Positions 9,443 through 57,300 of a stretch of DNA of 64,000 nucleotides are shown one piece after another. Position 1 is the first letter of the stretch. Every line of letters starts with the position of its first letter. The translations under genes were made by a program, and so were the position numbers. The stretch is from Lutibacter sp. (GTDB taxonomy: Bacteria > Bacteroidota > Bacteroidia > Flavobacteriales > Flavobacteriaceae): assembly GCA_030694935.1 (NCBI GenBank), contig JAUYUA010000021.1, positions 1-64,000 on the forward strand, read 5' to 3'. The notes beneath the pieces are model-generated. The model was not told where the DNA came from, did no database searches, and saw nothing but the letters and a program-made list of their open reading frames with translations.

Positions 9443-9612
9443 GCCTAAAGTTTGGAGTGCCTTGAGTGCCTTAAGTAAATTAGTTTTATACTTAGCAACT
9501 CATTCAAAATGATACATTTTTTTTAATTTTTTTTGAAAAAAAATTATTAATCTATTTGAGACGTTTTTATATCGTAAAAAAGCATTTTTTTAACTTTAGG
9601 CACTCTAAGTAC
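9443..9612. repeat. GAGTGCCTT tandem words and inverted counterpart
   Basis: GAGTGCCTT occurs twice in tandem (9455-9463 and 9464-9472), next to GCCTAAAG, and is answered by the inverted word AGGCACTC at 9598-9605. Long A/T runs lie between. No gene is seen in 9433-9633. The arrangement could fold as a large hairpin behind the convergent dgt and AlbA_2 genes. Confidence 0.4.
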
Positions 9613-13663: not shown

Positions 13664-13784
13664 AGTCGCGCAGTCAAGTGGGTCTTGCGGTCAAAAAGGT
13701 CGTGCAGTCGTGCAGTCAAAAGGGTCGTACAGCTGAAAATTTCCGTCCCGATAGCTATCGGGATCGGTCTTCGGACTTCCGACT
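13664..13784. repeat. Composite short-repeat stretch
   Basis: Three kinds of repeat in 120 bases between convergent genes: an 8-bp tandem (GTCGTGCA twice near 13697-13712), a perfect 18-bp palindrome TCCCGATAGCTATCGGGA (13746-13763), and a degenerate 7-bp tandem TCGGTCT-TCGGACT-TCCGACT (13764-13784) that runs into the stop codon of the next gene. The palindrome may act as terminator for both genes. Confidence 0.6.
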
Positions 13785-15225: not shown

Positions 15226-15247
15226 TTATTTTTGGTTTTTAGTACTG

Positions 15248-15292
15248 AGTATTCAGTATTGAGAGAACACTATCATCTCAATACTCAATACT
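15248..15292 (-). repeat. Hairpin between atpA and atpG
   Basis: 15248-15264 and 15276-15292 are 17-bp inverted arms (AGTATTGAGTATTGAGA with one mismatch) around an 11-base loop. Each arm is itself a 7-bp tandem (AGTACTG-AGTATTC-AGTATTG from 15241). No U-run follows on the coding strand, so RNA processing or stability is likelier than termination. Confidence 0.6.
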
Positions 15293-15300
15293 AAAATCAT

Positions 15301-22740: not shown

Positions 22741-22790
22741 TGGCGTTACCACAAGGGTCAGGCTTTCCGTTGCAATCTTTTTTTGGAAAA
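22741..22790. repeat. Possible dispersed repeat fragment upstream of porW
   Basis: The stretch with GCGTTACCACAAGGGTCAGG and CTTTCCGTTGCAATC is more GC-rich than its flanks and reads like a word I recall repeated between genes in many flavobacteria. It accounts for the non-lipoprotein upstream extension of the porW frame. No second copy exists in this window. Confidence 0.3.
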
Positions 22791-22990
22791 AAAACCAAAA
22801 AAAGGATTTTCACTTCAAACAAGGTTCACTGAACACCAATTCAAAATAATGAAAAGGTGAAGTAATCCTTAACGCAAAAAGTGGTGCCAATTAAAATTCA
22901 GCCTTTTTTACTAATCCTTTAACTTATTACACTGGTTACTTATTGCAATAAGGAATGTAAAAATACAAAAATCTATGCATTTAATTTAAG

Positions 22991-23686: not shown

Positions 23687-23743
23687 TTTTATATGTTTAA
23701 TCTTTATTTTATAAGTTTAATCGTTGAGTTGTTTTTTTATTTA

Positions 23744-23772
23744 AACTGCCTACTGAAACTGCAAACTGCCAA
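23744..23772. repeat. Degenerate 7-bp tandem repeat
   Basis: AACTGCC-TACTGAA-ACTGCAA-ACTGCCA-ACT keeps a strict 7-bp period over four units. It lies between the two ABC transporter genes. Same style as the repeats at 13764, 15241 and 54285. Confidence 0.6.
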
Positions 23773-23777
23773 CTAAA

Positions 23778-44798: not shown

Positions 44799-46151
44799 TT
44801 AGGACAAAAAAGCAACATCTTTTGGCTCCCAAAGTTCAATTTTATTTCCTTCGGGATCTAAAATCCAACCAAATTTTCCATAGTCATATTCTTCAATATT
44901 GCCAATAACGGGAACGCCTTCTTCTTTTAATTTATTTAAAAGTCCGCTTAAATCTTCAACCCTGTAATTAAACATAAAATCTTTTGTTGAAGGAGAAAAA
45001 TAAACCGTGTCGCTTTTAAACGGACTCCATTGTGTACAGGCCGGATTTCCGTTTTTGTCTTTCCACCAAAAAGTGGCGCCCCAATCATCGGTGTTAAAAT
45101 CCAAATGTTTTTTATACCATTCTTTCAGTTTAACAGGATTGTCCGATTTAAAAAAAAGTCCTCCAATGCCTGTAACTCTTTTTATTTCATCTTCAATTTG
45201 AACCGATTCTTTTGAAAAAAACAAAGCATCAACCTTATCAACAATTGTTTGCGCCAGTTTCACTTTAGATTCAACAGTCCAGCCTGCAATATGAGGCGAT
45301 AGCAATACATTTTCTGCGTGAATTAAATAGTCAAATGCTTTGGGAAAAGAATCGTTTTCAAACAGATTTTCAAAAGATAATTTTTCATATTCCAGCACAT
45401 CCAAACAAGCTCCCAATATTTTTTTACTAATTAGCGCTTCAACCAAATCATCGGTAACAACGGCAGAACCCCGTGCCGTATTTATAAGATAAAAAGGTTT
45501 ATTAAAATTACTGATAAACTGTGAATTTATCATATTGTGAGACAGTTTGTTGAAGGGCGTATGCAAACTCAACACATCGGTTTTTTCCTGCAATTCTTCT
45601 AGAGAAACCTGCTTGCAATTTTCATCGCCAACACCTTCTTTTATGTCGTAACAAATCACTTCAACCTCAAAGCCCTTTAATTTTTTAGCAAAGGCTTTTC
45701 CCATATTTCCGTAACCGATAATGCCCACTGTTTTGCCTTCCAGCTCAATGCCTCTGTTGGCTTCCCGCAACCATTTTCCCGCTCTGATTTCGAGATCGGC
45801 TTTTTTTAGGTTGTTGAACAAGGCCAAAATCATTCCCAGCGCGTGCTCACCAACGGCATTTCTGTTGCCTTCGGGCGCTGAAATTAACTGAATTCCCATT
45901 TTTTCGGCAAAATCAACATCAATACTTTCCAATCCGGCGCCAACGCGGGCAATAAATTTTAAGTTTGTGGCTTTTTCTAAAAATTGCTGATCTATGTTGA
46001 ACCTGCTTCTGATCACAATGCCATCATAACCAGCAATCTTTTCTTCAATTTGCTGTTTGGTTGAAAAATAATCTTCCTCGCAAACGCACCCCATTTTTTC
46101 CAAACCAGCTTGCAGAATTGGGTGATTGCTGTCTATCAGAAGGACTCTCAT
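44799..46151 (-). CDS. Fusion: 2-hydroxyacid dehydrogenase + VOC/glyoxalase domain
   Basis: 450 residues in one uninterrupted frame. Residues 1 to about 315 are a D-2-hydroxyacid (phosphoglycerate-type) dehydrogenase: VGAGLESIDVDFAEKMGI, EGNRNAVGEHALGMIL, Rossmann GIIGYGNMGKAF, NTARGSAV with the catalytic Arg, and LLSPHIAGWT with the catalytic His. Residues about 325-450 are a VOC domain, GIGGLFFKSDNPVKLKEWYK to WILDPEGNKIELWEP. Both halves look intact and are normally separate proteins. The linker (SKESVQIEDEIKRV) is short. The enzyme may oxidise a 2-hydroxyacid and isomerise or sense a related compound, but no substrate can be named. Confidence 0.88.
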   Translation of the reverse strand: MRVLLIDSNHPILQAGLEKMGCVCEEDYFSTKQQIEEKIAGYDGIVIRSRFNIDQQFLEKATNLKFIARVGAGLESIDVDFAEKMGIQLISAPEGNRNAVGEHALGMILALFNNLKKADLEIRAGKWLREANRGIELEGKTVGIIGYGNMGKAFAKKLKGFEVEVICYDIKEGVGDENCKQVSLEELQEKTDVLSLHTPFNKLSHNMINSQFISNFNKPFYLINTARGSAVVTDDLVEALISKKILGACLDVLEYEKLSFENLFENDSFPKAFDYLIHAENVLLSPHIAGWTVESKVKLAQTIVDKVDALFFSKESVQIEDEIKRVTGIGGLFFKSDNPVKLKEWYKKHLDFNTDDWGATFWWKDKNGNPACTQWSPFKSDTVYFSPSTKDFMFNYRVEDLSGLLNKLKEEGVPVIGNIEEYDYGKFGWILDPEGNKIELWEPKDVAFLS

Positions 46152-46161
46152 TTGTTGATAA

Positions 46162-46230
46162 ATTAGTATTTTAGATTATTAGTATTTTGGATTATTAGTA
46201 ATTGGATTATTGGTATTATGGATTCAAAAA
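46162..46230 (+). repeat. Left ~16-bp tandem array beside the four-helix-bundle gene
   Basis: ATTATTAGTATTTTGG (46175), ATTATTAGTAATTGG (46191) and ATTATTGGTATTATGG (46206) are three tandem units ending in GGATTCAAAAA. The same series stands in the same orientation at 46633-46689 on the other side of the gene. Confidence 0.7.
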
Positions 46231-46269
46231 AAATTACCGGCTAAAAGTCTAAAATACAAACAATCCCTT

Positions 46270-46626
46270 TTACTGTTCTTTTAAAGTTGATTTAAATTTA
46301 GACATCATTTTTATAATTATTTCTAAATTTTCTTGTAATTCCTTACAATGATTGTCAGACATAAAATTTAGATCATTAGAAATCAATAATTGTGTTTCAA
46401 CTTCATAACAAGAACCTAGAGCAATTTCTATAAATCTTGAAAAATCCTTATTTGATTTTCTGGAAGCTCCTTCTGCAATATTGGAAGGAATTGAAATAGA
46501 AGCTCTTCTTAATTGAGAAACCAATCCAAATTTTTCTTCTTCTGGAAATATCGCCGTGAAAGTGTAAATACTCTTACAAAATTCCCTGCTTAATTGCCAA
46601 AATTTTAAATCTTTATATCTATGCAC
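46270..46626 (-). CDS. Four-helix-bundle protein (S23/IVP family)
   Basis: 118 residues, all helical. It starts HRYKDLKFWQLSREFCKSIY and has the family hallmarks FGLVSQLRRASISIPSNIAEG and ALGSCYEVETQLLIS. The fold is that of the protein encoded in 23S rRNA intervening sequences of Leptospira and others, and is related to the Avd protein of diversity-generating retroelements. Here it is not in an rRNA gene. It is flanked by two directly repeated tandem arrays and has no partner gene, which makes it look like a cassette. Biochemical role unknown. Confidence 0.9.
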   Translation of the reverse strand: MHRYKDLKFWQLSREFCKSIYTFTAIFPEEEKFGLVSQLRRASISIPSNIAEGASRKSNKDFSRFIEIALGSCYEVETQLLISNDLNFMSDNHCKELQENLEIIIKMMSKFKSTLKEQ

Positions 46627-46632
46627 AATAGT

Positions 46633-46689
46633 ATTTTAGTATTTTGGATTTATAGTATTATTGGATTGTTGGTATATTGGATTCAAAAA
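46633..46689 (+). repeat. Right ~16-bp tandem array beside the four-helix-bundle gene
   Basis: ATTTTAGTATTTTGG (46633), ATTTATAGTATTATTGG (46648) and ATTGTTGGTATATTGG (46665), then ATTCAAAAA. This reproduces the left array (46175-46230) as a direct repeat of about 50 bp. Further related words (CAATCCATCAATCTAAAATACC) follow to 46724. Confidence 0.7.
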
Positions 46690-46728
46690 TCTAGAAATCT
46701 AACAATCCATCAATCTAAAATACCAGAA

Positions 46729-47547
46729 TTAATATTGCTCTTCATCGCTAGGGAAATCCCTGCTTTTTACATCGGCAATATAGCTTTCAAAAGCCGTGGT
46801 CATTTCGGTATATAAATCCATATAACGACGCAAAAATCGCGGATGAAATTCGTGGGTCATTCCTAGCATATCGTGCGTTACTAATACTTGTCCGTCCACA
46901 CCATTTCCGGCACCGATTCCAATAACCGGAATAGATATGCTTTCGGCAATTTTTTGTGCCAATTTTGCGGGAACTTTTTCTAAAACCAAGGCAAAACAAC
47001 CCAATTTTTCGAGCAATAAAGCATCTTCCATTAATTTTTCGGCTTCTTCCTCTTCCTTCGCCCTAACCGTGTAAGTGCCAAATTTATAAATAGATTGCGG
47101 GGTCAATCCCAAATGCCCCATCACCGGAATTCCAGCTGTTAAAATTCTGATGATGGACTCGCTAATTTCACTTCCGCCTTCTAATTTCACCGCGTGGCCG
47201 CCAGATTCTTTCATAATTCGGATGGAGGAATCCAACGCGTTTCTTGAATTTCCCTGATAACTTCCAAAGGGTAAATCTACCACCACCAAACTTCTGTGAA
47301 TCGCCCGTACTACAGAACTTGCATGGTAAATCATTTGATCTAAAGTTATTGGCAAAGTAGTTTCGTGGCCAGCCATCACGTTAGAAGCTGAATCGCCCAC
47401 CAAAATAATATCAACTCCGGCATTGTCAATAATTTTTGCCATGGTGTAATCATAAGCGGTAAGCATAGCGATTTTTTCGCCATTTTTTTTCATTTCCACC
47501 ACACTTTTGGTGGTAATTCTCTTATAGTCTTTTTTAGCTGTAGACAT
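46729..47547 (-). CDS. panB: 3-methyl-2-oxobutanoate hydroxymethyltransferase
   Basis: 272 residues, a TIM barrel of standard length. Family motifs: [33 protein letters not shown] (metal and substrate site, D and S), [11 protein letters not shown], and [23 protein letters not shown]. It transfers a hydroxymethyl group from methylene-THF to 2-oxoisovalerate, the first step to pantothenate and coenzyme A. No other pan gene is in the window. The four-helix-bundle cassette lies directly downstream. Confidence 0.97.
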
Positions 47548-54076: not shown

Positions 54077-54284
54077 GTAAGTTTAAAAGTTGTAAAGTTG
54101 AAAAGCTTGCCTGCCATTGGTAGGTTAAAAAGCTGGAAGACCAAAGTCAAAACGCTAAATTTTTTAATTGGCATCAAAAGAGAAATTGAAAATGATAATT
54201 GCAAAAGACGCGAAAAATTCGCAAAGAATACAAAAATGTGACAGGCAACCTCAAAAGTAAAATCTTGATTTTCCAACTTCTGTC

Positions 54285-54305
54285 TTCCGCCTTCGGTCTT
54301 CGGTC
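54285..54305. repeat. Degenerate 7-bp tandem repeat (TTCGGTC)
   Basis: TTCCGCC-TTCGGTC-TTCGGTC, three units at 7-bp period just 3' of the hybrid kinase. It shares its word with the tandem at 13764-13784, 40 kb away. Confidence 0.6.
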
Positions 54306-54306
54306 T

Positions 54307-57300
54307 TTATTTCCCTTTCGCCAAAAACTCATTAATTTTAGCCATTAAATCCTTTTGGTTAAACGGTTTAATTAAAATATCATTACAGCCCGCCTCTTTT
54401 ATATGCTGTATATCAACAGCTGTAGAATAAGCTGTTTGCGCTATAATGGGCAAGTTGGCCGCAAATTTTCTAATCTCTTTTGTGGCTTCATAACCATTCA
54501 AAACAGGCATTTTTATATCCATTAACACCAAATCTATTTGCGGATTTGATTTAAATAAATCAATCGCTTCAACTCCCGTTTTGGCTCTAAGAATATTAAT
54601 GTTCAAATCTGACAAAAATTCTTCTATCAACATAAAATTTAAATCCTCATCTTCAGCCACCAATAATGTTTTGGTTTCTTCTAAAGTAAAGTCCTTGTTT
54701 TTATTGACCACTTCGCCTAAAAAATCTTCCTTTAAAACTTTTTTGTATGGAATTGAAACGTAGAATACGGAACCTTTACCAATTTCTGACTGCAACGATA
54801 TATTTCCGCCCATCAATTCGGCATATCCTTTTGAAATTGACAAACCCAACCCTGAACCGCCATAAAAACGTGTACTTGATTTTTCTACCTGGCTAAATCG
54901 GTCAAATATTTCTTCGTGCATATTGGCCGGAATTCCAATGCCTGTATCTTCAACATAAAATTCGAGCATTTTTTCTTTTACCGTATAGCCAAAATTTATG
55001 CTGCCTACAGTTGTAAATTTAATGGCATTTCCAACCAAATTGGTTATTATTTGCAGCAGTTTTGTTTCGTCCGAAATAATTTCATCTTCGCCTTCGGGTA
55101 AAAATAGGTTTAAATTTAAGTCTATATTTTTTGCTGAAACACCTTTTTTGAACTGTTCATATACCAATTTAAGGAGGGCGTTCAATTTGATGTCATTTTC
55201 CCTAATTATTTCCTGACCAGCTTCTAAACTGGCAATATTGATGATGTCGGTAATGATGGAAAGCAACTGATTGCTGCTTTTTATGACAATGTCGCTATAT
55301 TTGTTCTTTCTCTCAAAAGAAAGGTCAGGATCTTTAAGAAAACCTGAAAATCCTATAATTGCGTTCATTGGGGTACGAATTTCATGAGAAATATTGTGCA
55401 AAAATGCCGTTTTCAAACGATCGCTTTCTTGTGCCTTTTCCAAGGCATTAATCAATGCTGTTTCGTGCTTCTTTTTATCTGTAATGTCCTCTTTTACCGC
55501 CAAAAAGTTTGTGATTTTTCCCTTATCATTAATAATGGAAGAGATTGATGCCTGTTCCCAATAAATACTGCCGTCTTTCTTTTTGTTTAACAATTCTCCA
55601 AACCAGTCTTTTCCTGAAGTAATGGTTTTCCATAAATCTGAATAAAGCTCATTGCCTTGATGACCCGATTTAAGGATCCTTGGGTTTTTTCCAATGACTT
55701 CTTTTTGTGAATAACCCGTAACTTCCTCAAATTTTTTGTTTACATATTCAATATTGCCTTTTATGTCTGTTATAATAACCGTTGCCGGACTTTGTTCAAC
55801 TGCTTTTGAAAGTTTGCGCAATTCGTCCATTGCCTTTTTTCTGTTTGTCTCATCAAAAAGATATCCTTTTATTGTTTTTAAATTTCCTTTCGAATCAAAT
55901 CCCCCTCTAAGGTTCCCCACAACATTGATCACTTTGCCGTCCAATTTTTTAAGGTCTGCTTCAAAAAAAGTTAAAATTTTATTTTCCTTTATTTCTTTAA
56001 TCATTTCATTTCTGGCGCCTTTAATTGCAAATATTTTATTAATATCACTGGCTAAAGCTTCTTCTTTGGATGAAAATCCACAAATTTTAAGAAATGCCGG
56101 ATTGCAGTTTAAAAGCTTACCTTCAGCGGTGGAAATAAAATCGCCCGTTAAATCGTCTTCAAAAAAGCTTTTATATTCTTCCCTGCTTTTAAACAAATCT
56201 TCTTCTACAATTTTTCGTTTGGAAATATCCCTGCTTACGCCAAGAATCCAAGATGGGATGTTTTCATCATTTGCCAATAGGGAAATCCTTATTTCTGTCC
56301 ACACTTTGGTGCCGTCTTTTTTAATCACTTCCAACTCCAATAATTGAGGCTCTGGATTTACCTCCATTTTTTGATCCAAATCTGGATCGAAAAGCGCAAT
56401 TGATTTTAGGAGTTTTTTATAGGAATCCTTTGTTAAAACATTGGCAATTGGCTGATTGATTAGCTCTTCAACCTTATATCCCTTAAGCGTTTCAACAGAG
56501 GGACTCACATAAGTGAATTTTAAATTGATGTCGAGCGTAAAAATTACATCGCCGGCATTTTCTGCCAACAATTTGTATTTTTTTTCACTGGCGGTAATTT
56601 TTTTTTGCTGAATTTCCAATTGATGCTTTTGGTATGCATTCAAAAGCATTGAAGGAAGTCTTAATAAATAATTTTCTCGTTTCACCAAATATTCATCAAC
56701 ACCCAATTTTAAAGCCTGTACCGCAACTTCTTCGTTCCCCTGGCCGGTAACTATCAGAATTGGAATGGAAAGTTTTCGTTCCTGCCTTATCGTTTTAACA
56801 GCTTCCAAAGCATTAATTCCAGGTAAATGATAATCCATTAATAAAATATCGAAGTAACTTGTTTCTTCATCCGATTTAGGCAGTAATTTTAATGCCGAAA
56901 TGGCATCAGGCACTGCTTTAATTTGCAAATTAGGCGAATGTTGCCTAAAATGTCTTTTTGTGAAATCAATATCCGCTTCGTGCCATTCCACATATAAAAC
57001 ATTGATAATTTCCGATTTGTATTTTTGGGATTTGTTGAAATTTTTGATGGCTTGTTTTATGGCTTCGGGAAGTTTTTTAAGATATCCCCTAGTTTTTACC
57101 AAATAATCATCTGCACCTGCTTTTAATGCCGTAATGGCAATTTCTTCATCTCCTTCAATGGTTAAAATAATGATGGCTATGGGCAGGTTTTTTTGTCGAA
57201 TAACTGTAAGCAAGTCTATTCCGTTACCATCAGGCAAATTTAAATCGAGCAGCAACAAATCATATTTCTCTTCACTTTGAAGCAATTTATCGGCATCTGC

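Follow-up and report, generated by a model that had tools for sequence, protein, structure and literature searches.

Why should a gene of the IVP/S23 four-helix-bundle family, whose proteins have solved structures and, to our knowledge, a function still without explanation, lie between two protein-coding genes with arrays of short repeats on either side? We addressed this question for one locus in a 64,000-nucleotide stretch of DNA from Lutibacter sp. (hereafter the window), where a preliminary description had placed an S23/IVP-type gene at 46270-46626 between two series of direct repeats. Both profile families support that gene assignment well over their cut-offs, PF05635 with E 1.2e-39 (135.3 bits against a cut-off of 33.8) and TIGR02436 with E 2.1e-38 (130.9 bits against 24). 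The locus comprises the following features, with the halves of the arrays named in the sense of the gene:

44799-46151, minus strand: phosphoglycerate-dehydrogenase-like gene, the downstream neighbour (TIGR01327, E 4e-62; 210.7 bits, below the equivalog cut-off of 454)
46162-46231, plus strand: 3'-side array, a direct copy of 46629-46689; C-bearing outer half
46241-46260, minus strand: short 3'-side piece in the opposite orientation, 85% complementary to 46163-46182
46270-46626, minus strand: IVP/S23 four-helix-bundle gene, 118 aa, GTG start; PF05635 and TIGR02436; dN/dS 0.11 against its counterpart in G247
46629-46689, plus strand: 5'-side array with a unit of about 8 nt; C-bearing inner half; ends with GGATTCAAAAA on the plus strand
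46691-46723, minus strand: 5'-side array in the opposite orientation; G-bearing outer half; adjoins the panB stop and pairs with 46631-46655
46729-47547, minus strand: panB, the upstream neighbour in the same direction (TIGR00222, E 3.8e-98)

The three genes all lie on the minus strand, and the cassette (gene plus arrays) starts at the panB stop codon. The GTG start of the IVP gene corresponds to an ATG in its same-site relative in G247, another genome of the genus. When a 37-member family alignment including the window IVP was used as query, the structures matched were 2gsc (E 1e-35) and 2rld (E 3.6e-26); the S23p of X. campestris is a pentamer according to the excerpt of PMC4990558 consulted here. 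The window IVP gene is not inside a 23S rRNA gene, as its position between panB and the dehydrogenase-like gene shows. With gathering scores, Rfam yields one match in the whole window, a Flavo-1 RNA (RF01705) at 22752-22830 (59 bits).

The repeats on the two sides of the gene are related to each other. Tandem Repeats Finder (TRF) reported period 16 for both the left block (46162-46224, 4.0 copies, score 91) and the right block (46633-46683, 3.2 copies, score 61), and the basic unit at this locus is about 8 nt. The tandem score of 20 of the left block was reached by 0/1000 dinucleotide shuffles, and that of 9 of the right block by 27/1000. Compared in direct orientation, left and right scored 44 (0/1000 shuffles, best shuffle 26), and GGATTCAAAAA closes both plus-strand blocks, so that the blocks of the same order, orientation and ending described earlier were recovered, and the position of the gene between two related arrays beyond chance is confirmed. 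Absent from that description was a piece of opposite orientation on each side. On the 5' side, 46699-46723 is 76% complementary to 46631-46655; the self-hairpin score is 19 for the right (5') side (0/300 shuffles) and 15 for the left (3') side (7/300). In the sense of the gene each side thus reads as a G-bearing array, a short spacer and a C-bearing array, a hairpin-like pair that is clearer at the 5' end. The two sides are also complementary to each other, with an inverted score of 21 (11/1000 shuffles). The window locus is therefore an octamer variant with a hairpin-like pair of arrays on each side, which accounts for the direct repeat seen. Within the 3.2-Mb genome the exact unit, allowing at most one mismatch, is nearly confined to this locus (11 matches, 4 of them at the locus, against 7 for a reversed control pattern).

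For IVP loci in general, we compared the 150-nt flank before each gene with the reverse-complemented 150-nt flank after it, scoring own partners against partners from other loci, in three samples. Set A held 112 Bacteroidota genes (loci L001-L006 and L018-L116), made up of top-scoring matches and a hand-picked share of the other listed ones. Set B held 85 matches in 80 loci of other species (about 30 loci Bacteroidota by title), the best 80 of at least 582 confirmed stretches from a search with a 9-sequence alignment, and set C held 7 cyanobacterial plasmid genes from 38 records found. Short flanks removed 5 genes of A and 3 matches of B, leaving 107 and 82. In set A the inverted match averaged 17.62 for own partners and 11.16 for mismatched ones, the highest of 2000 permutation means being 12.18; the corresponding values in set B were 20.71, 10.15 and 11.62. 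The match held both for the 51 genes of set B without Bacteroidota titles (21.78 against 10.10, best permutation 12.33) and for the other 31 (18.94 against 11.06, best permutation 13.71). Set C, a small set (n=7), gave 19.86 against 12.19, which is within its permutation range. Inverted scores above the 99th percentile of mismatched pairs were found for 41/82 loci of B and for 22/107 of A, where many loci share similar units. In direct orientation own partners exceed mismatched ones only slightly (12.51 against 10.82 in A, 11.82 against 9.38 in B). Within one genus, the score was 18.65 for 57 own pairs and 12.74 for 148 pairs drawn from different loci of one genome (p 6e-11), which speaks against a common genome composition as the cause. 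The unit varies by locus, and at any one locus each end is the reverse complement of its partner; such element-specific inverted ends are a property of transposable elements with terminal inverted repeats.

Period and polarity are likewise regular. Among 132 arrays scoring at least 10 in the 392 flanks of 196 IVP genes, 105 have period 7, 23 have period 8 and 4 have other periods, the scan having covered periods 5 to 12. A period-7/8 array was found in 128/392 flanks at threshold 10, two thirds of the flanks being without one, and in 192/392 at threshold 8; in the non-Bacteroidota part of set B the count is 57/102 flanks. Where the score reached at least 14, the 5' arm read inward carries more G than C at 69/79 loci of set A and 61/68 of set B. 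The intergenic pieces of set A have G > C on the 5' side in 92/101 cases and C > G on the 3' side in 68/82. In 120 control gaps the first half is unbiased (G 56, C 52) and the second half C-biased (86 to 25), so the 3' C bias of IVP loci is only partly special. Array unit and copy number shift fast between same-site relatives, and at different sites the sharing of units follows protein kinship weakly (a score of 12.6 for proteins 55-70% identical and of 10.3 for those below 35%). These loci form a class defined by one IVP/S23 gene, arrays of a 7-nt (here 8-nt) unit, reverse-complement ends and mostly codirectional neighbours.

The class is widespread. PF05635 genes occur in 35/38 genus genomes, 74/100 family genomes and 116/148 phylum genomes, and in 0/14 named control genomes; a search of a phage collection with one IVP query at E 1e-5 gave no match. 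The genome that contains the window has six IVP genes (on contigs C87, C74, C80, C93, C33 and C35), and by eye five of the six loci have short arrays on both sides, L005 having them on at most one. The search for further copies with the same flanking arrays, proposed in the preliminary description, thus recovered five other IVP genes and arrays at most of them, each of the six loci having a unit of its own instead of the window unit. Gaps occupied by IVP genes, as judged by family search, include those between GroES and GroEL (L260), NuoC and NuoD (L206), SdhA and SdhB (L184), and a FadB-like dehydrogenase (under its cut-off) and the acetyl-CoA C-acyltransferase that follows it (L031). According to record annotation, a cassette on a Nostoc plasmid (L178) lies between ribonucleotide reductase genes, antisense to both, and one on another cyanobacterial plasmid (L179) between cas6 and cas4.

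Sites with and without the cassette exist side by side, as is typical of transposable elements. For the panB junction, 24 genus loci were fetched and 23 parsed; far from being carried by all relatives at this place, the IVP gene is found only in the window's own genome and in G247 (2/23), and in 11/23 loci, all cassette-free, the next gene overlaps panB or begins no more than 2 nt from its stop. The comparison of syntenic panB neighbourhoods suggested earlier therefore did reveal empty sites, in keeping with the view of gene and arrays as one cassette. The 5' side of the G247 locus scores 66 against the window arrays. Two further genomes, G249 and G258, have gene-less array hairpins at the junction (by eye); that of G258 resembles the window arrays (scores 27 and 26, 0/1000 shuffles each) and that of G249 does so weakly (21, 5/1000; 20, 35/1000). 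Among 68 parsed panB loci of the wider family, nearly all from one genome per genus, two more IVP genes were found (G097 and G019, two other genera), both directly 3' of panB with another downstream gene, and they group with the window IVP (support 98). In other genera, too, arrays of heptamers or octamers immediately follow the panB stop where no IVP gene is present (e.g., L378, L402, L413 and L420), so that this end of panB looks like a hot spot for arrays. Of 30 loci of the FadB-type/thiolase junction, 11 contain an IVP gene, in 7 only 1-14 nt separate the two genes, and 4 (L157, L161, L163 and L165) show, by eye, gene-less inverted arrays. The possibility raised earlier that the arrays occur independently of such genes holds in part: similar gene-less arrays exist elsewhere, some of them dispersed in close relatives, and the arrays are not exclusive to the gene.

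On balance, we think that the locus is probably an intercistronic relative of the rRNA intervening sequences, i.e., an insertion cassette bounded by inverted heptamer arrays. In the sections of PMC4990558 consulted, the intervening sequences in the 23S rRNA of Coxiella burnetii and others have a gene of the same protein family between complementary ends; the Coxiella element has a variable number of GACAGAT heptamers just before the S23 gene and a 28-bp terminal stem, is called selfish, and its stem is cut by RNase III. The same sections place that element inside rRNA helix 45, from which it is excised by RNase III, and describe its S23p as decaying, whereas cassettes of the window type lie between protein genes and encode a protein under purifying selection. 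IVP genes in rRNA insertions are also described for CPR bacteria in the part of PMC11270868 used here. In the favoured reading, the cassette would arrive as an insertion bounded by its own inverted arrays, and the IVP oligomer would act on these arrays, either by binding them or by helping to establish and keep them. Gene-less array hairpins might then be non-autonomous or decayed forms of the cassette, and a gap between genes would be, like an rRNA loop, the least harmful place for an insert. This cassette view offers an explanation for the locations of IVP genes in both rRNA loops and gaps between cistrons.

Signs of movement are few, and inheritance in place dominates. In sets A and B, 2/17766 compared pairs from different sites reach 70% identity, and among 58 genus genes no pair at different sites reaches at least 70% over more than 80 residues, although short pairs at different sites reach 86% and 81% over 64 residues. 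The best sign that a cassette may have moved with its arrays is a related cassette with similar arrays at two genus junctions, as judged by sequence comparison. The IVPs of G259 (L363) and G249 (L351) share 48/62 residues, and both genes lie before a 4-hydroxyphenylpyruvate dioxygenase gene and after a gene unnamed by NCBIfam. A 62-residue IVP piece behind a thiolase gene in G253 (L329, 1-240), cut off by the locus edge and seen on its 5' side only, shares 53/62 with G259 and 50/62 with G249. GAGAAAA-type arrays precede the IVP at both the thiolase and the dioxygenase junctions, and the complement lies behind the gene in L351 and L363. For the 29 set A IVPs assigned to the FadB-type/thiolase junction by neighbour clustering, which may include some from the following junction of that operon, a quick tree of 119 columns rejected a single clade (AU p 4e-5). 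This result is an argument for repeated arrival; many losses under descent can mimic repeated gain. The dN/dS ratio is at most 0.23 in 20/21 same-site pairs and 0.48 in the youngest pair, and such low values indicate purifying selection on an IVP protein that is kept for something. Some IVP matches in the family, phylum and genus are truncated or have internal stop codons, so decay occurs beside purifying selection. Points against the insertion reading are the lack of near-identical copies at different sites, the gene-less arrays at the same junctions and in dispersed positions, and a tandem signal in ordinary gaps.

Could the matching ends instead be maintained as RNA? The arrays would then pair in the polycistronic mRNA, with the IVP frame in a loop excised by RNase III, the protein would bind the stem, and the element as a whole would set mRNA processing or stability between the two cistrons. 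The precedent is the rRNA intervening sequence, with its gene between complementary ends and a stem cut by RNase III (PMC4990558, in part), and the orientation of the cassettes fits, since both neighbours are codirectional in 96/107 of set A; in set B the count is 56/76 of those with both neighbours called. Adjacent control pairs from the same loci are on the same strand in 118/141 cases, so that codirectionality is raised only moderately, and there are cassettes that run antisense to the genes on either side, such as that between the ribonucleotide reductase genes of the Nostoc plasmid. If the stem were maintained as RNA, G.U mismatches should be better tolerated than A.C ones. Counted on the sense strand, G.U and A.C mismatches number 124 vs 154 in set A, 120 vs 125 in set B and 6 vs 6 in set C; this lack of a G.U excess leaves selection at the RNA level unsupported, and the match between the ends seems to be maintained on DNA. 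We therefore consider the RNA element unlikely, and the earlier suggestion of a structured RNA recognised by the protein is unproven.

It is less likely still that the IVP gene is an ordinary operon gene and that its arrays are local simple repeats that expand by slippage in tolerant gaps, the link between them being a by-product. Such an account fits the purifying selection and inheritance in place, the gene-less arrays both at the same junctions and dispersed, and the fast change of unit and copy number between same-site relatives. It does not predict the locus-wise inverted match of the ends, which is not expected from independent slippage. The recurrence of this architecture in different phyla and on plasmids of cyanobacteria also speaks against it, as does the enrichment of arrays next to IVP genes, which we assessed in control stretches of 20 kb, all from Bacteroidota, 50 from 13 genomes without PF05635 and 50 from 13 genomes with 6-16 such genes. 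At threshold 10, 128/392 IVP flanks (fixed windows of 150 nt with some coding sequence) have an array, against 1/744 intergenic windows (gaps of 30-150 nt) in IVP-free genomes and 6/646 windows not next to an IVP gene in IVP genomes (p 0.054 between the latter two). At threshold 8 the two control groups gave 15/744 and 19/646 (p 0.30); a smaller sample of 30+30 stretches had given 2/456 and 12/381, a contrast that faded at 50+50. Period-7/8 arrays are thus rare, yet present, in other intergenic DNA. A tandem signal (p <=0.05 vs shuffles) was found in 20/120 codirectional control gaps, mostly of period 7 and including junctions with gene-less arrays, compared with 44/101 5' and 41/82 3' IVP gaps. 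In IVP-less copies of the panB and FadB-type/thiolase junctions (L379 and L382 skipped), arrays were found at threshold 8 in 0/17 IVP-free genomes and 15/68 others (p 0.034), and at threshold 10 in 0/17 and 8/68 (p 0.35). These counts are no more than suggestive of a dependence of arrays on IVP genes located elsewhere in the same genome.

The mechanism of the preliminary description, in which two direct blocks allow loss or amplification of the gene by homologous recombination, appears improbable. The blocks of the window are indeed direct copies beyond chance, and gene-less hairpins lie at the same place in G258 (similar) and G249 (weakly similar), the former being what a block-to-block loss would leave. 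Direct copies are however a minority among IVP loci: in direct orientation 9/107 of set A and 10/82 of set B exceed the 99th percentile of mismatched pairs. Neither an excision product nor an amplification was observed, and the mechanism would explain loss of the gene but not arrival of the cassette.

A retroelement accessory protein, acting as Avd does in diversity-generating retroelements (DGRs) with the arrays as priming or template sites, is hardly credible, because the single PF00078 reverse transcriptase of the genome lies on C14, a contig with no IVP gene, and no reverse transcriptase lies on any IVP contig, and the case for it consists of the kinship of the four-helix-bundle structures Avd 4DWL and 2GSC stated in the part of PMC10053308 used and a weak similarity to Avd models. 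The window IVP scores 20.3 against a cut-off of 40 with PF22296 (E 8e-4) and 16.6 against 80 with NF033474 (E 0.0074). The C14 enzyme (L442) is presumably of the group II intron type.

Returning to the insertion cassette, we put forward one extension of it as doubtful: IVPs might be the agents of a new type of insertion element, the ends of which are set by geometry instead of sequence, namely a 7- or 8-nt period, mirror placement and a G-strand that reads inward at both ends. The inward G-bearing polarity is what stepwise 3'-end extension at both sides of a DNA break would leave. If this were true, IVP elements would have produced, or left behind as relics, many of the unexplained heptameric repeats in bacterial intergenic DNA, with the rRNA intervening sequence as just one niche of the same element. 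Such repeats, 7 nt long and mainly intergenic, are described for Xanthomonas (GGGAATC), Nostoc (GGGGA(C/T)T) and Beggiatoaceae (TAACTGA) in the main texts of PMC4692102 and PMC4679880, the former without the terms 'S23' and 'helix bundle' and the latter without 'S23', 'four helix' and 'four-helix'. Among the open-access papers retrieved for the IVP/S23 family together with repeats or intervening sequences, none makes this connection in its title or abstract opening. A gene of this family within locus-specific, mirror-image heptamer cassettes joins two puzzles, an orphan protein family and intergenic heptamer arrays without an agent.

MITEs and REP-type intergenic palindromes are non-autonomous palindromic elements, and the gene-less inverted-array hairpins resemble them. 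The cassettes differ in having no common terminal sequence, a unit that varies by locus and no transposase gene. Away from the cassette, 5/49 intergenic windows of the window contain a period-7/8 array scoring at least 9, and 3 of them one scoring at least 10, so gene-less arrays are more frequent here than in the genomes sampled as controls. One gene-less array hairpin lies at 15237-15299 between two minus-strand genes (GTACTGAGTATTCAGTATTGAG / CTCAATACTCAATACT). The 701-base stretch around it has matches of equal length in G249, G254 and G265 (94-97%) and of 674-720 bases in six other genomes, with no match in G247 and with G258 and G259 left out of the comparison; these similar lengths in relatives suggest that the hairpin is probably old. 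At 54077-54307, a G-bearing array is followed about 170 nt on by a CTTCGGT-type array, the part at 54271-54307 being a dispersed repeat with at least 38 matches on 18 contigs of G267 and fewer in G247, G250, G249 and others. Further short-period arrays in gaps without an IVP gene are found at 2763-2798, 9455-9476, 13682-13732 and 23743-23774. Finally, a palindromic GC-rich repeat, CCTGCCTGCCGGCAGGCAGG, is located at 428-480, and similar pieces are present in the flanks of two IVP loci, L002 and L006.
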